43,083 bases of DNA from Bacillota bacterium. GTDB lineage: Bacteria; Bacillota; Dehalobacteriia; UBA4068; UBA4997. The position numbers and the translations under genes are program-made. Every line of letters starts with the position of its first letter. Within the stretch, counting starts at the first letter, position 1. This document shows positions 4,340-40,471 of this stretch, piece after piece. The DNA is taken from assembly GCA_017397935.1 (NCBI GenBank), contig JAFQHN010000001.1:83134-126216 (forward strand). Direction: 5' to 3'. The notes under the pieces are model-generated. The model was not told where the DNA came from. It worked only from the letters and a program-made list of their open reading frames with translations, and ran no database searches.

Positions 4340-5011
4340 TTAACGGTTGCAGCGGACTTCGTGCCTGGATAATTTGTCCTCGAAACGGTAAGACAGCTTG
4401 GTAAGCACGGCGTTCAATATCAGATAAATGATGGCGGCCACCAGATAAGCCATAACGCTGCCGTCACGGTTGACGGCGGCACGGGAGTTTTTCATCAAAT
4501 CAGCCACGCCCAGAACGGAAACCAGCGCGGTATCCTTGACCAGCGTAATCATCTCATTGGTGACGGAGGGGAGAACGCGCTTGATGGCCTGCGGGATGAT
4601 GATGTCAAACATGGTCTGGAATTTGTTAAGACCCAGACAGATAGAGGCCTCGTACTGACCGCGCTCGATGGAGCCGATGCCGCCGCGGTAAATCTCGGAG
4701 AGGTAAGCGGCGTAATTGAGCACAAAGGTGATGATGGCGGCAGGCAGGGCGTCTATGCGCAGGCCGAAATAAATGGGCAGCATAAAGTAAATGAAGAATA
4801 ATTGCAGCATAAGCGGAGTGCCGCGGAAGATGAACACATAAGCGCGGCAGGCCCAGCGCACCGGCAGAACTTTGCTGTCGCTGCCGAGGGCCAGCGGCAA
4901 ACCCAGCGGAATGGCGAAAATCAGCGTCATAAAGAACATGACCACGATAATTTTGGTGCCCTGTAACAGGGCCGGTAAAATCAGCAGTATGTAATCGAAG
5001 GTTTCGGACAT
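4340..5011 (-). CDS. polar amino-acid ABC transporter permease
   Basis: Inner-membrane subunit of the HisM/GlnP family, 223 residues with about five membrane helices. It shows the FRGTPLMLQLFF motif near residue 75 and the cytoplasmic EAA-like loop (YRGGIGSIERGQYEAS) that contacts the ATPase. I chose the ATG at 5011 because AAGGA lies 9 nt upstream; an in-frame non-ATG start three codons earlier would overlap that spacing. It pairs with the ATPase 12 bp downstream and is separated from the binding protein by 124 bp containing a hairpin. Confidence 0.93.
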   Translation of the reverse strand: MSETFDYILLILPALLQGTKIIVVMFFMTLIFAIPLGLPLALGSDSKVLPVRWACRAYVFIFRGTPLMLQLFFIYFMLPIYFGLRIDALPAAIITFVLNYAAYLSEIYRGGIGSIERGQYEASICLGLNKFQTMFDIIIPQAIKRVLPSVTNEMITLVKDTALVSVLGVADLMKNSRAAVNRDGSVMAYLVAAIIYLILNAVLTKLSYRFEDKLSRHEVRCNR

Positions 5012-6159: not shown

Positions 6160-6236
6160 CGAGGTGTGGCTCAGTTTGGTAGAGCGCTGCGTTCGGGACG
6201 CAGAGGCCGCAGGTTCGAATCCTGTCACCTCGACCA
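6160..6236 (+). tRNA. tRNA-Pro (CGG)
   Basis: A 77-nt cloverleaf with acceptor stem CGAGGTG/CACCTCG, D-loop CTCAGTTTGGTAGAG, anticodon stem CTGCG/CGCAG with loop TTCGGGA (anticodon CGG, reads CCG) and T-arm GGTTCGAATCC. CCA is encoded (6234-6236). The last 17 bases before the final A (6219-6235) are repeated exactly at 6392-6408. Confidence 0.97.
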
Positions 6237-6290: not shown

Positions 6291-6408
6291 GGATGAGAAC
6301 CGTAGGTGAGATGTGCGAGGCCCTAAGAGGGCGAGCCTTCGGCGAAGGCCGATTAGCGTGGCCGAGCCATGCCCGAGCGCAGCGAGCGGCTATCCTGTCA
6401 CCTCGACC
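6291..6408 (+). repeat. tRNA-end-duplicating repeat, copy A
   Basis: Starts GGATGAGAACC (6291-6301), continues through a G/C-rich, hairpin-forming segment (GCCTTC-GGC-GAAGGC; CGAGCGCAGCGAGCG) and ends with a 17-bp exact copy (6392-6408) of the tRNA-Pro 3' end. The distance from the original tRNA end is 173 bp. The same core order and start occur beside tRNA-Arg at 34,473-34,583, ending there in that tRNA's own 3' end. It contains no ORF worth calling. Confidence 0.75.
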
Positions 6409-30735: not shown

Positions 30736-33548
30736 TGAGACCGTTAAAGCTGGAAATTTCGGCCTTTGGGCCATACGCCGGACGGCAGGAGATTGATATG
30801 GCGGCGCTGGGTGAGGGCGGCTTGTACCTCATCTGCGGCGAAACAGGCGCCGGCAAAACCACCATTTTTGATGCGATTAGCTTTGTGCTTTTTGGTGAGG
30901 CCAGCGGCGAGGGCAGAGATGCGGCGTGGCTTCGGAGTAAATATGCGGCGGCGAATGTGCCGACCTATGTGAAAATGGAATTTTTATACCGCGGCGAGGT
31001 GTATTTGGCCGAGCGCAACCCCGAATATCTGCGGCCGGCGCGGCGTGGTGACAAGCTGACGGTGGAGCGTGCCAATGCGGCGCTGACCTGCCCCGATGGG
31101 AGGCTGATAACCGGGAGCAGGCAGGTTACGCAGGCTGTGGAGGATTTGCTGGGGGTTGACCGACAGCAGTTTGCCCAGATTGCCATGATCGCGCAGGGGG
31201 ATTTTCGGAAGCTGTTGGAGGCGGACACGCAGGAGCGCGGTGAGATTTTGCGGCAGCTGTTTAATACCGGCCGCTATGCCAAGCTGCAAGAGCGATTGAG
31301 TGCCGAGACCAACCGCGCCAAACAGGAGTATGAGCAGCTGCGGCTGGCTTTGCTGCAAACGGCAGGCGGCTTGCAGGCCGAGGAAAATTCGGCGTTGGCC
31401 GGGGCGGCGGCCGATTGGCAAAACAGCGAGGGGCGGACTGATTTATCGCCGCTGCTGGTGGAATTGCAGGCCCAAAATGCCGCTGATGAGCAAAAAATCG
31501 CGGAATTGTCAACCAACGATGAATGCTCGCATAAACAATTGGCCGAGCTTAATCAACGGCTGGGGCAGGCGGAGAAGGCCGAACAGGACGGCAGGGAGCT
31601 GATCGAACGCAGCCAAAAGCTGGCCGAACTGCAAGAGGCGGTGCGTGAGGCCGAGGAAAATCTGCGGCGGCGGCAGGAAGATTTGCCCAAACAGCAGGAA
31701 TTGCAGCGCAGACAGCACGATTTGAGCGCACAGCGGCCGCTGTATCAGGAGTATGAGCAGGCGCTGGCGGCTTATCATGCGGCGGACCGAGAGCAGACGG
31801 CCAAGCGGCAGGAATATACACGACAGCAGCAGGCCAAGGCCGATTTAGCCGGGAGAATAGGCGAATGTGTGCAGGAATTGGCGCAGCTGGCCGAGGTGGA
31901 CCGCAAGCTGACCGAGGTATCGCGGCGGCAGATGGAGCAGCAAACCCAAAGTGGGCAGCTGGCCGACTTGACCGCACGGGTGGGCAAGCTGATAAGCAGA
32001 GAGCGCAATTTGGGGCAGCTGCAACAGGAATATCGGCGGCAAAAGGGCGATTATGATAAGGCCAATTTGGCATATCAGGCCGCTGAGCAGGCGTTTTTTG
32101 CGGCACAGGCCGGGCGGCTGGCCTTACAACTGGCGGATGATGTGCCCTGCCCTGTCTGCGGCGCCACCCGACACCCACGGCCGGCACAAATTCCTGCGGC
32201 GGCACCCACCGAGGATAAGCTGGCCGAGCAGCAGCGGCGGTTGCAGCAGCGGCGTGATGAGGTTATGCAGCTTTTGGAGCGCGGCAAGGCCGAGCGGGAG
32301 CAGCAGCAGACCGAGCGTGAGGAGACGGCGGCGCTGGGGCGGCTTTATTGGGGCGAATTGGGCCAAAAGGCGGCCGATGACATAGCCAATGATGCGGAGC
32401 TTTATGCGGCGTGGCAGCGGCGGCTGGACGAGCAGAAAACGGCGGCGGACAAGCTGGCGGAGGAACTGCGGCAGGCTGAGCAGAAGTTGACCCGTGACAT
32501 CAGGCGGCGTGATGAGCTGCAAACCCTGCGGCCGAAATTGGAGGAGGCCGAGCGCGGTTTGGCGGAATTGCTGGTGCGGTTGGCAGGTGAGATGGCGGCG
32601 GCCGAGCAGCAGACCGTAAATTATCGCAAATTGGCGGAGGAAAAGCAGGCCTTACTGCAATATCCCGACCAAAGAGCGTTGGAGCAGGCCATTTTGGCGG
32701 TGCAGGATGAGGCGAGCCGAATGGAGCAGCAGTTGAAGCAGGCCGAAAGTAATCTGAACAGGCGGCGAGAGCAGCAGGCGGCTGAGGAGGCGGCGATAAA
32801 TGTGCTGCGGCAGCGGCTGCAAAGTGCGCCGACCGAGGATGCGGCGGCCCTGCGGCAGCAATTGGCGGAGGAGAACAGCCGGCGGCAGGATTTGCAGAAA
32901 CGGCGGCAGGAGCTGGCTAATCGTCTGCACCAAAACAGCGCGGCGGCCGAGCAACTGAGCAAATCGGCGGCGGCCAGAGAGCGTGCGGCGGCCCGTTGGG
33001 GTTGGTTGAAGGCGTTATCGGACACGGCCGGCGGCACGCTGACGGGCAAGGAGCGCCTGCTGTTTGAAACTTATATTCAGCGGACTTATTTTGACAATAT
33101 TATCAGCATGGCCAACCTGCGTTTTGCGGGCATGACCGACGGCCAGTATGAGCTGAAACGGCGTGAGGAGCCGATGGACCTGCGCAGTAAAAGCGGCTTG
33201 GAGCTGGATGTTATCGACCACTACAACGGCAGCGAGCGCAGCGTTAAGACGCTATCGGGCGGTGAGGCGTTTAAGGCATCACTATCGCTGGCGCTGGGGT
33301 TGGCGGATGTGATACAGGCCGGCGCCGGCGGCATTAAGCTGGACACCATGTTTGTGGACGAGGGTTTTGGCTCTTTGGACGAAAAATCTTTGGGGCAGGC
33401 GGTGCGGATTCTGAATGAGCTTTCCGGCGGACAGCGGCTGGTGGGCATAATATCGCACGTTGGTGAGCTGAGAGAGCGTATTGACCGGCAGATTATCGTC
33501 AGCAAAAACCGCAGCGGCGGCAGCAGCGTGAAGATTATGGCCGAGTAA
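30735..33548 (+). CDS. sbcC: exonuclease subunit SbcC (Rad50-like ATPase)
   Basis: A 937-residue SMC-like ATPase. Walker A GETGAGKTT is near residue 35 and a long Q/E/R-rich coiled coil runs on both sides of the zinc hook CPVC (Cys472 and Cys475). The signature LSGGEAFKASL is near 840 and Walker B FVDEGFGSLD near 875. The coiled coils are rather short compared with E. coli SbcC (1048). They are also extremely rich in GCGGCAG/GCAGCAG codons, giving long false frames on the other strand. Confidence 0.96.
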   Translation: MRPLKLEISAFGPYAGRQEIDMAALGEGGLYLICGETGAGKTTIFDAISFVLFGEASGEGRDAAWLRSKYAAANVPTYVKMEFLYRGEVYLAERNPEYLRPARRGDKLTVERANAALTCPDGRLITGSRQVTQAVEDLLGVDRQQFAQIAMIAQGDFRKLLEADTQERGEILRQLFNTGRYAKLQERLSAETNRAKQEYEQLRLALLQTAGGLQAEENSALAGAAADWQNSEGRTDLSPLLVELQAQNAADEQKIAELSTNDECSHKQLAELNQRLGQAEKAEQDGRELIERSQKLAELQEAVREAEENLRRRQEDLPKQQELQRRQHDLSAQRPLYQEYEQALAAYHAADREQTAKRQEYTRQQQAKADLAGRIGECVQELAQLAEVDRKLTEVSRRQMEQQTQSGQLADLTARVGKLISRERNLGQLQQEYRRQKGDYDKANLAYQAAEQAFFAAQAGRLALQLADDVPCPVCGATRHPRPAQIPAAAPTEDKLAEQQRRLQQRRDEVMQLLERGKAEREQQQTEREETAALGRLYWGELGQKAADDIANDAELYAAWQRRLDEQKTAADKLAEELRQAEQKLTRDIRRRDELQTLRPKLEEAERGLAELLVRLAGEMAAAEQQTVNYRKLAEEKQALLQYPDQRALEQAILAVQDEASRMEQQLKQAESNLNRRREQQAAEEAAINVLRQRLQSAPTEDAAALRQQLAEENSRRQDLQKRRQELANRLHQNSAAAEQLSKSAAARERAAARWGWLKALSDTAGGTLTGKERLLFETYIQRTYFDNIISMANLRFAGMTDGQYELKRREEPMDLRSKSGLELDVIDHYNGSERSVKTLSGGEAFKASLSLALGLADVIQAGAGGIKLDTMFVDEGFGSLDEKSLGQAVRILNELSGGQRLVGIISHVGELRERIDRQIIVSKNRSGGSSVKIMAE

Positions 33549-33846: not shown

Positions 33847-33889
33847 AAAAAAAGCATTGTAACCGTTGTATTGGCTACAATGCTTTTTT
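33847..33889. terminator. bidirectional terminator
   Basis: AAAAAAGCATTGTA and TACAATGCTTTTTT form a perfect stem with A/T tracts on both sides. It separates sbcDC and the small gene from the convergent XRE gene, whose stop it overlaps. Confidence 0.92.
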
Positions 33890-34103
33890 ATTTGGGAGGG
33901 GCTGGATTGTTGGTGCGTCCCAACAGGTAATCGGTGGAGGTTTGGTAAAAATCGGCCAGCTTTAACAGGTGGATAACGGGTATGGTCTGGAAACCGCGCT
34001 CATAGCGGGAATAAACGGTTTGGGTGATGCCGAGAATGGCGGCAATATCAGCCTGGCGTAAGTCTTTATCCTCGCGTAAATCCTTTAAGCGTTGAAAATA
34101 CAT
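33888..34103 (-). CDS. XRE-family repressor next to the tRNA-Arg repeat
   Basis: 71 residues: RLKDLREDKDLRQADIAAILGI, TQTVYSRYERGFQTIP and LLKLADFYQTSTDYLLGRT are a textbook HTH_3 domain of phage type. It is divergent from the small gene at 34,204. AGTACT-type palindromes fill the gap between them. This mirrors the XRE/small-gene pair beside tRNA-Pro, although the two XRE proteins belong to different subgroups. Confidence 0.93.
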   Translation of the reverse strand: MYFQRLKDLREDKDLRQADIAAILGITQTVYSRYERGFQTIPVIHLLKLADFYQTSTDYLLGRTNNPAPPK

Positions 34104-34116
34104 GGGGCACCTCTGG

Positions 34117-34189
34117 ATAGTACTGTTTGATACTATTGACCATACTGCAACAGAGTGCTAAAATGTTGTTGGCAGTACTAAAAAGTACT
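34117..34189 (+). promoter_or_regulatory. divergent promoter/operator of the XRE pair
   Basis: ATAGTA-N8-TACTAT (34,117-34,136) and AGTACT-AAAA-AGTACT (34,174-34,189) are related operators. Between them TTGACC (34,136-34,141), a 17-bp spacer and TAAAAT (34,159-34,164) make a good promoter for the small gene. GGAGG follows 4 bp after the second operator. Confidence 0.75.
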
Positions 34190-34203
34190 ATTTGGAGGTT
34201 GTT

Positions 34204-34437
34204 ATGGAATTATACGAACAGATTTTGGCCAGGGCGCTTGCCGGAGAAGAAATCAGGGTTGTTTATGTAAAAACAAATGAGGCGGAAATTGTTGAAAAAG
34301 AGAGTTACAGGGCCTTGAAGAGAATACGCGATATTTTGGCAAACGGAGCATTAAGTGATGATGAGTGTTATTTGAGAATTGAGGAATTGGTGGGCCTATT
34401 TGAGGAATGGGAGGAACAAAGGCTGCGGCATAAATAA
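34204..34437 (+). CDS. small acidic helical protein, unknown function
   Basis: 77 residues from ATG 34204 (GGAGG 5 nt upstream; the frame opens four codons earlier without a ribosome site). ESYRALKRIRDILANGALSDDECYLRIEELVGLFEEWEEQ resembles small hypothetical proteins common in Firmicute prophages and integrative elements (recollection). It is under the control of the divergent XRE operator and ends at a terminator just before repeat copy B. Confidence 0.75.
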   Translation: MELYEQILARALAGEEIRVVYVKTNEAEIVEKESYRALKRIRDILANGALSDDECYLRIEELVGLFEEWEEQRLRHK

Positions 34438-34472
34438 AAAAGCACCTGACGATGAACTGTCAAGTGCTTTTG
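34438..34472. terminator. terminator between the small gene and repeat copy B
   Basis: AAAAGCAC-C-TGAC pairs with GTCA-A-GTGCTTTT. It follows the small gene's stop on plus and repeat B on minus. The AAAGCACC arm is like that of the terminator after repeat A. Confidence 0.8.
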
Positions 34473-34590
34473 TGGCGTGCTGCGAGGGAGCCCCCTTCGG
34501 GGATGGGCAGCCGTTTGCCAATCGCGCGGCGGCCTTGCCTTGCGCTCTTGGGCGTCTGCCGCATCGAACCCGGGTTCTCATCCCTCGCAG
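34473..34590 (-). repeat. tRNA-end-duplicating repeat, copy B
   Basis: On minus it starts CTGCGAGGGATGAGAACC (GGATGAGAACC at 34,583-34,573), goes through a G/C-rich hairpin-forming segment (CCCCGAAGGGG) and ends in a 17-bp copy (34,489-34,473) of the 3' end of tRNA-Arg including CCA. The real tRNA end lies 179 bp away. The two ends TCCCTCGCAG/CTGCGAGGGA are inverted copies, so the whole element can fold on itself. It is homologous in order and partly in sequence to copy A beside tRNA-Pro. Confidence 0.75.
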
Positions 34591-34615
34591 GTACAATAAA
34601 AAAGCACCTTATAAA

Positions 34616-34650
34616 TAAAAAGTACCGCTATGTTTCAAGCGGTACTTTTC
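34616..34650 (-). terminator. terminator of the tRNA operon
   Basis: On minus AAAAGTACCGC pairs with GCGGTACTTTT, followed by a T-run. It starts one or two bases after the tRNA-Arg CCA. Confidence 0.9.
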
Positions 34651-34651
34651 T

Positions 34652-34728
34652 TGGCGTGCTGCGAGGGATTCGAACCCCCGACCTTCTGGTCCGTAGCCAG
34701 ACGCTCTATCCAGCTGAGCTAGCAACAC
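34652..34728 (-). tRNA. tRNA-Arg (ACG)
   Basis: 77 nt including encoded CCA. Acceptor GTGTTGC/GCAGCAC (one G-U pair), D-loop GCTCAGCTGGATAGAGC, anticodon stem TCTGG/CCAGA with loop CTACGGA (ACG, read as ICG after deamination), T-arm GGGTTCGAATCCC. Its last 17 bases are repeated at 34,473-34,489. Confidence 0.97.
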
Positions 34729-35181: not shown

Positions 35182-36876
35182 TCAGGCCAACAATTTCTTT
35201 AATTCATCGATATTTTGAGGGAGAGTGACCATGTGCACGGGTTGCTCTCCTTCTTCCATTTGGCTGTCCAGCATACCGATGTCACGGTAGACGATGCGGA
35301 TGTCCTGCGGTGCAGAATGGGAATGTTTCTTCGCCCTCTCGCCAATTTCAATCCGCTCAATGAACAGGCGCAGAAGCTCAGGAGTCAGTTCATCGATGGT
35401 TTTGAACCGCTTTGCCTTCTCAATGAAGGCATCCACATTCGCCGCCGACGCTCTCAGCTTTTCCAGCCGCTCCAGCTTTCCGGGGATCGCATCCTCCAGA
35501 GCTTTCTGCTCGGCGTTGTAGTCTGCGGACAGCCTGCGGAACTGTTCATTGGTGATACGGCCCAGAACATTGTCCTCATAGAGACGCTTGAACAGGGCAG
35601 AGAGCTCATCGCTTCTGCGCTGCATGGAATCCACTTCTTTTTGCAGAGCGTTGATCTCCTTCTTCAGTTCCGCGCTGTTCTTGGCGTTGATGTACGCCGC
35701 GAACTGTCGCTCCTTCATTCTGGCGAAATGCGTCACTCGGCGCAGATCATCCAACACGACCTGTTCCAGATCGTTCTGCCGGATCTGATGGGGTGTGCAG
35801 TAGTTCTTCCCCTTCTTACCGTAGGTGTAGCACTTGAGATGGAACTGGGAGCGCTTAATGGCCTCTGTCCGGTACAGCACCATGGGCTTTCCGCAGTCAG
35901 CGCAGAAGACAAGACCGGCGAACATATTGGGCTCATCCATGTGCTTGGGTGGTCTGCGCTTGTGGGCGCGGACATCCCGCACGATAGCCCACAGTTCCTG
36001 GGTGATCAGCGGCTCGTGGGTGTCCTTGACGATGATCTGATCCTCCTCGGGGATATCAACTCTGGTCTTGTTCTTGTAGGAGATCGTGGTGCTTTTCAGC
36101 GCATGGTGATGTCCGAGGTATATGATGTTATCAAGGATATGCGCCACCGAATTGCTGCTCCAGCCATATGGCCGCTCCATATCCATCCCCGGATGGCCCT
36201 TGCCGTACTTTCTGTAGTAGTAATGGGCAGGAGTCAACACCTGTTCCAATTCAAGAATGCGGGCGATCTGCTTGGGCCCCTTGCCAGATGCGCAGAGGGA
36301 GAAGATGCGCTGCACGATGGGAGCAGTCTCCTCGTCCGGAACGATCTCCTTGCTGTCACGGTCTTTCTGTTTGTATCCGTAGGAGACCTTTCCACCGGAA
36401 CGCTCACCGCGCTCTGCCTGCATCCGCTTGGTGGAGCGCACCTTCTTACTGGTCTCCTTGGCGTGGAGCTCGTTTGCCCAATTTCGGATGGGGTTGAAAT
36501 CGTTGCTGCTCTCCACCAGAGAATCCACCGAGTCATTGACGGCGATGAACCGGACGCCTTTCTGCGGGAAATAAATTTCCGTGTAGTAGCCCACCTGAAG
36601 ATACTCACGACCGAGTCTGGAGAGGTCTTTCACGATCAGGGTCTCTACCTCGCCGCGCTCGATCATCTCCTCGATCTTCTTCCAGGAAGGCCGCTCGAAG
36701 TTGGTACCGGAGTACCCATCGTCGGCCAGAAAGATGACATTTTCAAAACCATTATCGTGTGCGTATTTCTCCAACAGAAGTCTCTGATTCTGGATGGAAT
36801 TCGACTCGCCCAGCCGGGCATCCTCCTGACTGAGCCGTCCATATAAAATCGTGTATTTATCAATTTGGCTTGCCAT
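35182..36876 (-). CDS. large serine recombinase (integrase)
   Basis: A 564-residue site-specific recombinase. The N-terminal resolvase domain has Ser16 in YGRLSQEDA as the nucleophile, then DDGYSGTNFERP and the DLSRLGREY helix region. The recombinase domain follows (GKVSYGYKQKD), then a zinc-ribbon start FCADCGKPM with later cysteines, a coiled coil (residues ~395-460) and a DUF4368-like C-terminal segment (LRLFIERIEIGER). Such enzymes integrate and excise elements without tandem-repeat attachment sites. GGAGG precedes ATG 36876. Its gene lies at the element's edge, as is typical. Confidence 0.96.
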   Translation of the reverse strand: MASQIDKYTILYGRLSQEDARLGESNSIQNQRLLLEKYAHDNGFENVIFLADDGYSGTNFERPSWKKIEEMIERGEVETLIVKDLSRLGREYLQVGYYTEIYFPQKGVRFIAVNDSVDSLVESSNDFNPIRNWANELHAKETSKKVRSTKRMQAERGERSGGKVSYGYKQKDRDSKEIVPDEETAPIVQRIFSLCASGKGPKQIARILELEQVLTPAHYYYRKYGKGHPGMDMERPYGWSSNSVAHILDNIIYLGHHHALKSTTISYKNKTRVDIPEEDQIIVKDTHEPLITQELWAIVRDVRAHKRRPPKHMDEPNMFAGLVFCADCGKPMVLYRTEAIKRSQFHLKCYTYGKKGKNYCTPHQIRQNDLEQVVLDDLRRVTHFARMKERQFAAYINAKNSAELKKEINALQKEVDSMQRRSDELSALFKRLYEDNVLGRITNEQFRRLSADYNAEQKALEDAIPGKLERLEKLRASAANVDAFIEKAKRFKTIDELTPELLRLFIERIEIGERAKKHSHSAPQDIRIVYRDIGMLDSQMEEGEQPVHMVTLPQNIDELKKLLA

Positions 36877-36898
36877 TGTTTTTACCTCCTTCTATGGG

Positions 36899-36940
36899 GC
36901 AAGCCGGTACGGTAACACGAAGTATACCGCACCGGCTTGC
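36899..36940 (-). promoter_or_regulatory. long inverted repeat in the recombinase leader
   Basis: GCAAGCCGGTACGGTA (36,899-36,914) and TACCGCACCGGCTTGC (36,925-36,940) are inverted copies with one mismatch, around a 10-bp loop, starting 22 bp before the recombinase ATG. There is no T-tract on minus. It may be a terminator of the upstream small gene, an operator or a translational control hairpin. Confidence 0.65.
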
Positions 36941-36958
36941 ACAAGTCTATTGAATTAT

Positions 36959-37240
36959 TCAGGCGCTGTGCGCTTCTTTTTCCAGTTCGCTGTCGATGTA
37001 GGACAGGAACTTATCCGTAGCGGTTGCCGAAGCGTCTGCCGGGAATACAGAGGTGATGCGGAAGCATCTATCCCCAACGGTCATCATTCGATTACCAGTC
37101 AGCTCCTTTTCGGTAAAATGATAGACGGTATCCCGGTAGGAAGTGAAAACCCCTTCTTCCTCCTGTCTCAGGAAAGCTCGTCCCGGCTGATAGGCACCGA
37201 CCATTCCAGTCTCCATATATTCTTCAAACTCAGTTCTCAT
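36959..37240 (-). CDS. small element-encoded protein, unknown function
   Basis: A 93-residue acidic protein; AAAGGAG lies 6 nt before ATG 37240. It has no membrane segment or motif that I recognise. FTSYRDTVYHFTEKELTGNRMMTVGDRCFRI suggests a small beta-rich fold. Position between relaxase and recombinase is typical of accessory genes of integrative elements. Confidence 0.75.
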   Translation of the reverse strand: MRTEFEEYMETGMVGAYQPGRAFLRQEEEGVFTSYRDTVYHFTEKELTGNRMMTVGDRCFRITSVFPADASATATDKFLSYIDSELEKEAHSA

Positions 37241-37288
37241 AGAACTCCTTTCCCCCGAATCATGTCGGGCAATAAAAATAGCAGACCG

Positions 37289-38821
37289 TCACATGGTCTG
37301 CCGCATCACCGGACCGTCCATGTCCGGTGTCTCAGGTTCATTTGTAGTTTCAGGCTGCATCGGGTCTGCCTGCATGGCTTTATGCGCGGCGATAGCAAGA
37401 CCAGCGGCCAGTCCTGCAATGGCACCGAAGTTCTGAGCAGACTCTCTGGCATCGATCAGTCTGCGCCGCTCCTCCGGGTCATCGCTCTCGCTATCCATGG
37501 CGCTCAGTCCAGTAAGAACAGATGCCGCACCAATTCCCACAGCACCAGAACGACGGTCGGCAGGTACAGCTGCCACTGCACTCGATTTGCGGAATCCTCC
37601 ACTGAATCGGTCGCCCTGGAGAGCTTGGAAGAGAAGTCCACGCTGGCTCTCCCAACCTGTTTCCCGAACTCCTTCAGCGCTGTCTCCTGCTCCCGGCGCA
37701 TGGTGTTCAGGCTGTCCGTCATGGATTTCTGAACCTGTCTCAGATGTCTGGCACTGCTCTCGTTCAGTTCCTGAACCGCCTTCTGCATCGCAGTTACTGC
37801 CGTGCTGTGCTCTGCCAGAAGCAGTTGCACCTGTTCTTTGAGCATCGCGTCCATCTGCTCGTCCGTGAGCAGATGCCCCACGCTCTCCTGCAGCTTCAGG
37901 ACCGACTGTCCGGTCAGCTCCACCGCGCTGGTCAGGCCCGTCCAGTTTTCTTCCGTCAGCGTGATCGACTTCTGGATGTTCCCGGCCTTGTCCATGCTGC
38001 GGCGCAGCGCCGCTTTCTGCATAGCCTGCATTTCTGCCATGGTAGGCTGCGTATTCTTTTGCTCGAAGTTTGAATTCATAGTCCATATTCTCCTTTAGAT
38101 ATTTTGTGTCGTGCAAACGATAGTCCCGACAGCTTTTGCCGTCGGGAGTGGTATAGGTGATGTTGGCGCGGCTGTCCGTCCACTTGACCTGATAGCCCTC
38201 GCTCTCCATCAACTCAATGAACTGCTCTTTGTTGACTGCGTACTTCATGCACTCGTCGATCTGGATGGCCAGAGCGACCTTCCAACTCTCGCCGCGCATG
38301 GCGGCATGGTACTCGGCTTGCTTGATACCGGAGGTCTGCTGCTTCTTTGGCTGGCAAATGGACAGGCCGTGCCGCAGGCAGATCTCGTCCGAGAGAGTTC
38401 TAAGCTGCGTCAGATCCTCTTTCACGAAGTGGAGTTTCTTTCCGGTCTCGAAGCTGACCGAGTTGATGATGAAGTGCGAATGGATGTGCGCGGCATCGGT
38501 GTGAGTAGAAACGATGAGCTCGTAGTCCTTCCACTGCTGTGCCAGTTCCAGAGCGACTTCGTGCGCTTTCTCCGGCGTAATGTTTTCCTCCGGGTGGAAG
38601 GACTGCACGAAGTGAAAATACATTTTGCCGTCGCATTTGTTGTACTGCAGCTTCGTGCTGATGAACTCCGTGCAGCAGGTTTCCGGTTGGCAGTTGATCG
38701 CAGTGACCAGATGCCGCCCCTCGTATTCGGTTTTGTGCTCCTGCATCACATACTTCAGCACAGCGGCAACGCCGCCGCAGGTTTGACCTCTGGGACGATT
38801 GATGGGTGTGACAGTCGCCAT
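37289..38821 (-). CDS. relaxase (MOBP-type, MobA/VirD2 family)
   Basis: A 510-residue DNA-nicking protein that starts mobilization at oriT. The relaxase domain (residues ~1-200) has Tyr24 in AVLKYVMQEHKT and the metal-binding histidines of HTDAAHIHSHFIIN (His107, 112, 114, 116). Residues ~250-440 are low-complexity G/E/Q/R sequence that exactly coincides with a second gene in another frame (37,504-38,079). The last ~70 residues regain a normal composition (DDPEERRRLIDARESAQNFGAIAGLAAGLAIAAHKA). It starts 3 bp after mobC. Confidence 0.93.
   Translation of the reverse strand: MATVTPINRPRGQTCGGVAAVLKYVMQEHKTEYEGRHLVTAINCQPETCCTEFISTKLQYNKCDGKMYFHFVQSFHPEENITPEKAHEVALELAQQWKDYELIVSTHTDAAHIHSHFIINSVSFETGKKLHFVKEDLTQLRTLSDEICLRHGLSICQPKKQQTSGIKQAEYHAAMRGESWKVALAIQIDECMKYAVNKEQFIELMESEGYQVKWTDSRANITYTTPDGKSCRDYRLHDTKYLKENMDYEFKLRAKEYAAYHGRNAGYAESGAAPQHGQGREHPEVDHADGRKLDGPDQRGGADRTVGPEAAGERGASAHGRADGRDAQRTGATASGRAQHGSNCDAEGGSGTEREQCQTSETGSEIHDGQPEHHAPGAGDSAEGVRETGWESQRGLLFQALQGDRFSGGFRKSSAVAAVPADRRSGAVGIGAASVLTGLSAMDSESDDPEERRRLIDARESAQNFGAIAGLAAGLAIAAHKAMQADPMQPETTNEPETPDMDGPVMRQTM
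37504..38079 (-). CDS. nested MobB-like protein inside the relaxase gene, other frame
   Basis: A complete 191-residue frame entirely within the relaxase gene. ATG 38079 has its own AAAGGAG (38,096-38,090) 10 nt upstream. The product is soluble and helical, coiled-coil-like from residue ~25 to 150 (VQLLLAEHSTAVTAMQKAV, LRQVQKSMTDSLNTMRREQ), and ends in one membrane helix (YLPTVVLVLWELVRHLFLL). MobB of R1162 and MbeB/MbeD of ColE1 are likewise encoded in another frame of the relaxase gene. A role in anchoring the relaxosome at the membrane is inferred. Confidence 0.85.
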   Translation of the reverse strand: MNSNFEQKNTQPTMAEMQAMQKAALRRSMDKAGNIQKSITLTEENWTGLTSAVELTGQSVLKLQESVGHLLTDEQMDAMLKEQVQLLLAEHSTAVTAMQKAVQELNESSARHLRQVQKSMTDSLNTMRREQETALKEFGKQVGRASVDFSSKLSRATDSVEDSANRVQWQLYLPTVVLVLWELVRHLFLLD

Positions 38822-38824
38822 GGC

Positions 38825-39151
38825 TCACACCTTCCTCTCCAGAATTTCCTTGAGTAGTTTCTGGATCTCCAGGTAAAGCGCGTAGGTGTCACCGATGTTG
38901 GCAGAGCTGATCCTTCCCATGTTCGCCAGCGTCGCCAGCTGATTGAGATTGGTCCCTTGCTGCTTCAGCGTGCGGGTGAAATCATTAAGGCCTTCGATGT
39001 GTACGATCTCCTTTCCAACGGCGCAAGTGGTCAGATACTTTGTGAGATCCATCCCTGCGGACGCCGCCTTCCGCCGGATGGTCTCAGCGTGCTCCTCTGT
39101 CACATAGAAGGTCAGAGGAATAGGTTTTGTTCGATTGGCTTTTTTCTTCAA
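38825..39151 (-). CDS. mobC: relaxosome accessory protein MobC
   Basis: 108 residues. PIPLTFYVTEEHAETIRRKAASAGMDLTKYL is the ribbon-helix-helix part, and GLNDFTRTLKQQGTNLNQLATLANMG matches the MobC-family core with its NLNQ motif. It binds oriT and helps the relaxase open DNA. The start is TTG 39151, 7 nt after GGAGG. It is directly upstream of the relaxase and downstream of the probable oriT region. Confidence 0.93.
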   Translation of the reverse strand: MKKKANRTKPIPLTFYVTEEHAETIRRKAASAGMDLTKYLTTCAVGKEIVHIEGLNDFTRTLKQQGTNLNQLATLANMGRISSANIGDTYALYLEIQKLLKEILERKV

Positions 39152-39394
39152 TATGGTACCTCCGTAATAAAAAGTGGGTGCAGGGCTTCCGCCCGCATAG
39201 GAGAGGCCGAAGGCAGTTCGCGGCCGCCAACGGGCGGGCGTGAACAGTCAAAGGCGATGCTCGCTCTCTGTTGAAGCAGAGACCCGCCGTATCCTCGGCC
39301 CTGTGCTTCTGCCTGGTCACGATCCGTCATTCGCGGCTCGTCGTCCTTCGGCCACAATCGGCCCAAAACGGCGTTTCTTTTCGCCTGCGGGAGT
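39152..39394. other. probable oriT region between repA and mobC
   Basis: 243 bp with no supported gene, rich in short inverted repeats (GCCCGC...GCGGGC; GGCCGAAGG and CCTTCGGCC at distance). Its position directly upstream of mobC and the relaxase is where oriT usually lies. No nick sequence could be matched with confidence. Confidence 0.45.
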
Positions 39395-40471
39395 TTACTC
39401 GCTATGCCAAGAAACCTCCCGCAAACCGCCGCACACTGCCCCGGCAGGGTCGCAAGTGCCGCTTTCGTCGGCACCGGGAATATCGACACTATCGGCACGG
39501 CGCAGCTCGATGAGCCGCTTTCCGTTGCTTCTTCTGACAGAGGCGGAGATACCGGTTTTGCTTAGAGCGTCAACGCTTTGCAGAACCAGCCGGGATACTT
39601 TCTTCGGCGTGACCTGCTCGACACCGGCAGGGTCGATCTGCTGTGAGAGTTCGGTGGGAGTGCCGATAAATTCCGTTCTCTGTTTCATGAATTCAGAGAG
39701 AAGAAATGCCACGCGGCTCTCCAGCAGCAGCGGCTGTTCCTTGCTGTCGCTGACCACCTCCCAGATATTTTCCTCGCTGCGCTTCAGTTCGATCTCCCGA
39801 TACTCGATGTCCCGCCCGATGCAGTACAGCATAGCCTGTCCGCTGCCGCGCTTACTTTCCACCAGCGTGAAGCTGGAATCCACCGCGCCGCTGATGGCAG
39901 TCGTGCCGGAGATGCGGCTGAACACATCCTCCGCCGGTTCCTTCCGCAGATGGTGGATCAGCAGGATGGCGATGCCGTGATCATCCGCGATCTGCTTCAG
40001 CACAGACAGGTCACGGTAGTCGTTGGCATAGGTGTTGTCGTAACCGGCGCCGCGGATGAGCTGCAGCGTGTCGATGATGACCAGGGATGTGTCGGGATGC
40101 TCCTTGAGGAAGTTGGTCAACTGTTCCTCCAGACCTTTGCCGAGGATAAAACTCTCGGTGCTGAAATGGACATTAGCCGGAGCGTCTTCCGTGATCTCGT
40201 ACAGCCGATTCTGGATGCGGAGCGCGGAATCCTCCAGTGCGAGATAGAGTGTTGTACCGCCTTTGGTGGGCATTCCCCAGACCGGATCACCCTTGGCCAC
40301 CGTCACCGACAGCCAGAGAGCGAGCCAGGACTTACCAACCTTGGGCGATCCAGCGAGAATGTGCAGTCCCTGGGAGAGCAGAGAGTCCACCACGAAGTTC
40401 AGAGGCTTCAGCGGTTGACTCATCAGTGTTGCACCGTCGATGGTGTGCAGATGTTTTTCGTTTGGTTTCAT
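39395..40471 (-). CDS. RepA-like AAA ATPase/helicase
   Basis: A 358-residue RecA-fold ATPase of the RSF1010 RepA / AAA_25 type. Walker A is GSPKVGKS (residues 41-48); LYLALEDSALRIQNRL follows, Walker B is SLVIIDTLQLIRG, then AILLIHHLRK. The last ~30 residues (IPGADESGTCDPAGAVCGG) look unlike the family and may be an extended tail. GGAGG lies 8 nt before ATG 40471. It may unwind DNA for replication or maintenance of the excised circular form. A strong hairpin lies in its leader. Confidence 0.88.
   Translation of the reverse strand: MKPNEKHLHTIDGATLMSQPLKPLNFVVDSLLSQGLHILAGSPKVGKSWLALWLSVTVAKGDPVWGMPTKGGTTLYLALEDSALRIQNRLYEITEDAPANVHFSTESFILGKGLEEQLTNFLKEHPDTSLVIIDTLQLIRGAGYDNTYANDYRDLSVLKQIADDHGIAILLIHHLRKEPAEDVFSRISGTTAISGAVDSSFTLVESKRGSGQAMLYCIGRDIEYREIELKRSEENIWEVVSDSKEQPLLLESRVAFLLSEFMKQRTEFIGTPTELSQQIDPAGVEQVTPKKVSRLVLQSVDALSKTGISASVRRSNGKRLIELRRADSVDIPGADESGTCDPAGAVCGGLREVSWHSE

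Follow-up and report, generated by a model that had tools for sequence, protein, structure and literature searches.

REP/REPIN sequences and the GTAG and CGTC REPs are small palindromic repeats (PMC3116915, PMC3733652). Casposons are large elements with Cas1, PolB and terminal inverted repeats that insert beside tRNA genes, leave these unchanged, overlap only the last 4-7 tRNA nucleotides and have target-site duplications of 1-27 nt, with a median of 15 (PMC4046053). The ssrA islands of Dehalococcoides insert into the T-loop of the tmRNA gene with a Ccr-like serine recombinase and carry 20-bp repeats of the ssrA 3′ end (PMC3146451). Here we describe a repeat beside tRNA genes that resembles each of these systems in part and that we read, on balance, as a gene-free, non-autonomous, REP/MITE-like palindromic element of about 150-180 bp that inserts at the 3′ ends of tRNA genes. 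We found no account of such an element in the literature searched, where its exact motif appears only in unrelated papers.

Like REP/REPIN sequences, the tRNA-end element is short, gene-free and imperfectly palindromic, forms composite arrays, shows compensatory changes in its stems and occurs sporadically. However, it sits at tRNA 3′ ends together with a copy of the tRNA end instead of being randomly scattered, there are few copies per genome, and the carriers G000 (the genome of the locus studied here, from a gut bacterium), G002 and G005 lack a RAYT/Y1 transposase. By eye we recognised no GTAG or CGTC tag in it; in the broad sense of a short, repeated, gene-free intergenic palindrome whose paired stems are under constraint, it is REP-like. 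With MITEs and PATE-type palindrome-associated mini-elements it shares a short, structured, non-autonomous make-up and a mobility that is deduced, and its direct repeats are consistent with target duplication; no parent transposon was found. Whereas MITEs have a short target duplication or none, the tRNA-end element has a duplication of 17-19 bp tied to tRNA positions 58/59 to 76 (in standard tRNA numbering). As casposons do, it adjoins an intact tRNA gene and is flanked by a duplication, but it contains no genes and no CRISPR-like array was seen in the 1.24 Mb (78%) of G000 examined; casposon or Cas1-like insertion was rejected on these two counts. T-loop insertion, a repeat of about 20 bp of the RNA gene's 3′ end and tandem stacking recall the Dehalococcoides islands, yet those bear genes and use ssrA only, while the present element occurs at many tRNAs, is gene-free and has a structured core.

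The window, by which we mean the whole 43,083-nt stretch of DNA analysed, carries two copies. Copy B lies on the minus strand behind an intact tRNA-Arg(acg) gene (34652-34728; called by ARAGORN, Rfam tRNA 61.7 bits), whose segment A58-A76 is the upstream member of a direct repeat. The downstream member, TCCCTCGCAGCACGCCA (34473-34489), is an exact copy of the last 17 nt of the tRNA including CCA and lies 179 bp away, just as the preliminary description had stated. Reading along the minus strand, a proximal terminator-like hairpin, T1 (34612-34651), stands immediately 3′ of the CCA and is followed by AAGGTGCTTTTTTATTGTA (34591-34611), which repeats the 3′ half of T2, the distal terminator (alignment score of the T1 region with T2, 26). 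Next comes the left arm CTGCGAGGGAT (34590-34580), the reverse complement of ATCCCTCGCAG in the tRNA-Arg end and thus an inverted copy of the tRNA-Arg 3′ half, ranking first among 66 tRNA ends; bases 1-10 of the arm pair with TCCCTCGCAG in the tRNA-end copy (34489-34480). The arm is overlapped by the motif GGATGAGAACC (34573-34583) and continues as CTGCGAGGGAT-GA-GAACCCGGGTTC-GA, where GAACCCGGGTTC is a small hairpin (34564-34577 with the GA that follows it) and GGTTCGA equals the T-loop half up to A58. The conserved core hairpin (34507-34561; model R1, 42.3 bits, E 1.1e-7, outside the training set), a CCCCGAAGGGG hairpin, TCCCTCGCAGCACGCCA and the distal terminator-like hairpin T2 (34432-34472) complete the series. 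The segment 34473-34592 folds at -59 kcal/mol, with a z-score of -2.65.

Copy A shows the same succession of parts on the plus strand behind tRNA-Pro(cgg) (6160-6236): the motif GGATGAGAACC at 6291-6301, the core at 6312-6368 (38.3 bits, E 1.3e-6) and a 17-nt copy of the tRNA-Pro 3′ end, ATCCTGTCACCTCGACC, at 6392-6408. The two copies do open with a common motif, as had been noted, and GGATGAGAACC occurs nowhere else in the window even at one mismatch. Alignment of the whole elements was ambiguous outside this motif; a covariance model with neither A nor B in its training set, which gave the scores above for both, settled the matter, and the two cores are homologous. The lack of core homology that would have refuted the first account was therefore not seen. 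The further observation that the two ends of the element are inverted copies holds for copy B; in copy A a tRNA-specific inverted arm is not clear. We rejected a tRNA-specific inverted arm as a universal feature because only 6 of 14 elements have it. At the Rfam 15 gathering score, the window matched four tRNAs and no other known RNA family.

The 1,244,455 bases of G000 that were examined (78% of 1.59 Mb) contain just three stray tRNA 3′ ends of at least 16 nt, each beside its own tRNA and a core, and the covariance model finds just three core hairpins, which coincide with the stray ends at Pro-cgg, Arg-acg and Met. In a control for chance that set these downstream regions against ends taken from other tRNAs, matches of at least 11 nt arose in 7 of 3001 trials. 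Another class of repeat in G000, rich in A+T, follows Leu-caa, Leu-tag and Arg-tct (L070, around 1730-2040; L084, minus strand, after 1590; L085, after 1907); it is composed of a terminator, a spacer ending in AAATTTAAYAAATTWTTTTGT and an inexact duplicate of the tRNA 3′ end, and is arranged in tandem at Arg-tct.

Within the genus, model R1 detects the core in 7 of 9 genomes. It gives no further match among 35 genomes of the order and, at E up to 1e-6, none among 398 members of the phylum that lie outside the genus. All comparisons used MAGs or draft assemblies, and several element loci lie at contig ends. In four genomes the core accompanies tRNA genes of 11 or more kinds, and wherever the tRNA-end copy is preserved it reproduces the 3′ end of the neighbouring tRNA, so that the arrangement proposed from two tRNAs extends to Met in G000 and well beyond it. 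Two MAGs of the genus come from rabbit gut, G002 (CANQPG) and G005 (CANQSW, named 'uncultured Peptococcaceae'); elements follow Ser-gga, Met, Gly-ccc, Glu-ctc and Ala-ggc in the former and Ser-gga, Trp-cca, Glu-ctc, Arg-acg and Arg-ccg in the latter. A scan of 84,980 species genomes added RGIG1653, a goat-gut Oscillospiraceae MAG with elements at Gln-ttg and Pro-cgg, as well as RGIG3136 and four Patescibacteria stretches. In the Patescibacteria stretches (MAGs of Gribaldobacteria and Paceibacterota) the core lies behind protein genes and away from tRNAs, near stop codons and beside other palindromes, and may reflect contamination, transfer or convergence. Related hairpins were also seen in ordinary intergenic DNA of G001, G006, G007 and G008, for example directly 3′ of groEL, with different outer stems, GTGAACACTTAATGA..GAATTTAGTGTGAAC, or with the ends CTATGGTAT. 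The core pattern had no match in IMG/VR and the element none in phage and plasmid records, and we rejected a phage or plasmid origin on that basis.

The boundary of the repeat is fixed on the tRNA. The preserved downstream copy starts at either A58 or N59 and in most cases extends to A76, so that the last 17-19 nt of the tRNA are duplicated, while the bases directly before it vary (GGGTA, TTTTTTT, TATTA or GTCGTA). At the left boundary, core units at tRNA-derived sites that keep the motif follow the T-loop half GTTCRA. Cores are also nested in one another after GNNCGA, giving stacked left halves followed by stacked right halves in G005. One core in G002 (L173, around 4360-4540, contig C2) lies in the T-loop of a copy of the tRNA-Pro(tgg) 3′ half; it has no inverted arm, and a phage-type XRE regulator is near.

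The extent of the unit is clearest in RGIG1653, where the Gln and Pro elements align over about 155 bp that comprise terminator, arm, GGTTCGATAACT and core. The alignment begins right after the CCA, which places the T1 terminator within the mobile unit of this genome, and it ends within the tRNA copies where the two tRNAs diverge; behind each unit stands the end of the respective tRNA. The Gln copy alone adjoins its tRNA directly; the Pro copy lies 0.46 kb behind, with other DNA between. At Ser-gga of G002 an identical terminator duplicate is present on either side of the element. The proximal terminator looks native at Pro in G000 and at Trp (G005 compared with G004), which makes the ends assigned to the unit tentative at these sites. 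Among directly adjacent copies, the direct repeats are spaced by about 300 bp at most. The preliminary description had argued against plain local duplication; the core at no fewer than 11 kinds of tRNA and the 155-bp unit shared by two tRNAs of RGIG1653 bear this out.

The core is a hairpin supported by covariation. Among 20 core units, 97.2% of the pair cells are standard and 7 pairs have changed on both sides, with 28 two-sided cells compared to 8.0 in shuffles. The covariation score is 0.271, against 0.092 for shuffles and at most 0.038 when the partners are slid. Together with the stable fold of copy B, these values answer the call for folding and covariation analysis that accompanied the first account of the locus. 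The internal loops are of G-A type (CGAG..CGAG and CCAAGA..GATTGG), and G-U pairs are few; single-stranded DNA, and not RNA alone, could thus be the form under constraint.

Comparison of sites with and without the element shows that its presence differs between relatives. tRNA-Arg(acg) has no element in G001, G002, G004, G006, G007 and G008, and in two of these, G002 and G004, sbcC lies directly behind the tRNA with its 3′ end. The sbcC gene of G000 terminates about 1.1 kb further on, at 33548, and the element and three small genes fill the interval. Divergent small genes occupy 33888-34437 between the element and sbcC, encoding an XRE-type regulator (RstR-like, 71 aa) and a protein of 77-81 aa that had no family match; they are absent at the orthologous site of G002 and G004. 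The tRNA-Arg of G000 and its copy both carry GCAG where other tRNA-Arg genes have GTAG, which assigns the duplication to the lineage of G000. The tRNA-Arg(ccg) site is vacant in G004. In G002 it holds a terminator and a tRNA-end copy, and behind these comes a terminator that is homologous to the G004 one; in G005 the full element is present, divided between two contigs.

Insertion with target duplication is the simplest account of these observations, because different exact tRNA ends come with one and the same unit; the direct repeats have the geometry of target-site duplications. The mobile unit would consist of a terminator-like hairpin, the left arm, a small GAACC/GGTTC hairpin whose base carries G-A pairs and one or more core hairpins of about 70 bp. 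Its insertion would duplicate the last 17-19 nt of the tRNA (A58 or N59 to A76), such that the upstream tRNA keeps its whole 3′ end with CCA and a terminator and the downstream duplicate is left stranded past the element. Core units would also insert into each other after GNNCGA, yielding tandem and nested arrays. We infer that the duplication arises on insertion, that an enzyme acting in trans is responsible and that we are dealing with a parasite, not a functional RNA. Several points count against this reading: a duplication of 17-19 bp tied to tRNA coordinates is unusual for a transposase, the searches described below identified no mobilising enzyme, simple target duplication does not account for the tRNA-specific inverted arm seen in copy B, and the proximal terminator looks native at some loci.

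A search for the mobilising enzyme gave negative results for the candidates examined. Y1_Tnp (PF01797, RAYT) is absent from G000, G002 and G005, with a single match in G008, and a REP/RAYT system was rejected for these carriers. Reverse transcription of a tRNA end halted at m1A58, which would explain the 58/59 boundary, was likewise rejected: the TrmI-type m1A58 methyltransferase (PF08704) is absent from G000, G002 and G005, and reverse transcriptase (PF00078) is absent from G000 and G005 and present in G002. The window also contains a small integrative and mobilizable element at 35182-40471 on the minus strand, with a CcrB-related large serine recombinase (564 aa), a MobA/VirD2-type relaxase, a MobC/NikA-like protein and an AAA_25 protein; it adjoins a tRNA-Ser/Ser/Arg cluster on its 5′ side and lies outside the repeats. 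More tentatively, the element could represent a new class of tiny hairpin parasite, for which a putative enzyme would cut almost any tRNA gene in a staggered manner, at position 58/59 of the T-loop and behind the CCA, insert the hairpin unit and duplicate the tRNA end with no tRNA lost.

The elements could instead be shrunken remnants or satellites of integrase-type islands, left between attL and attR after a tyrosine or large serine recombinase crossed over in the T-loop and the island supplied the tRNA 3′ end. The layout is that of tRNA/tmRNA islands, including the flanking direct repeat of the RNA gene's 3′ end, and the Dehalococcoides ssrA islands use the tmRNA T-loop and leave 20-bp repeats (PMC3146451). 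Tyrosine integrases number 9, 10 and 7 in G000, G002 and G005 compared to 1 in the element-free G004, a CcrB-related serine recombinase is encoded at 35182-36876, and the core in the tRNA-Pro(tgg) 3′-half copy is near a phage-type regulator. A real island of 16.3 kb with a tyrosine integrase is integrated at tRNA-Val(gac) in G002 (G002:C9:14788-31210); however, its att repeat is 56 bp long and starts in the D arm. No integrase gene lies inside the tRNA-end element, since spacing of about 300 bp or less leaves no room for one, and what is conserved is the unit itself rather than a random remainder. A recombinase with one att is poorly suited because the tRNAs share little but TCC at the start of the repeat, and one att cannot yield exact, differing ends of 17-19 nt with the same unit. 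The doubt raised early on about an integrase with one fixed att was thus well placed, and we consider an island origin unlikely.

A two-step local origin, in which template switching or tandem duplication at a tRNA end and its terminator makes the direct and inverted copies and cores later enter the displaced T-loop sequence, seems to us rather improbable. It is kept alive by what simple target duplication leaves unexplained, namely the inverted arm in 6 of 14 elements and the repeats that have no core (Arg-ccg and Leu-tag in G002 and a Met remnant in G004), and it would fit the identically duplicated terminator at Ser-gga of G002 and the core in the pseudo-tRNA-Pro T-loop. On the other hand, the A58/N59 boundary is exact at unrelated tRNAs, and in the Oscillospiraceae pair terminator, arm and core move as one. 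Very improbable is a working non-coding RNA, made by read-through or as its own transcript, whose 3′ strand mimics a tRNA end and disturbs tRNA processing or sequesters an enzyme: the core is structured, with covariation and conserved G-A internal loops, and the arms pair with the tRNA 3′ copy, but the element is sporadic and missing from most tRNAs, its copies are decayed with arms often mismatched, and its compensations are nearly all Watson-Crick with few G-U.

The classic sites where phages and islands land are the 3′ ends of tRNA genes, and each such phage or island is normally tied to one tRNA by its att. If the preferred reading of an inserting palindromic element is true, a gene-free element that settles at many different tRNAs and copies whichever end is there would solve this problem in another way, and would indicate an undescribed enzyme with specificity for tRNA genes. 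It would also explain the stray tRNA ends and the fast-changing terminators behind tRNA genes, and such an element could pass for prophage att scars in genome annotation.
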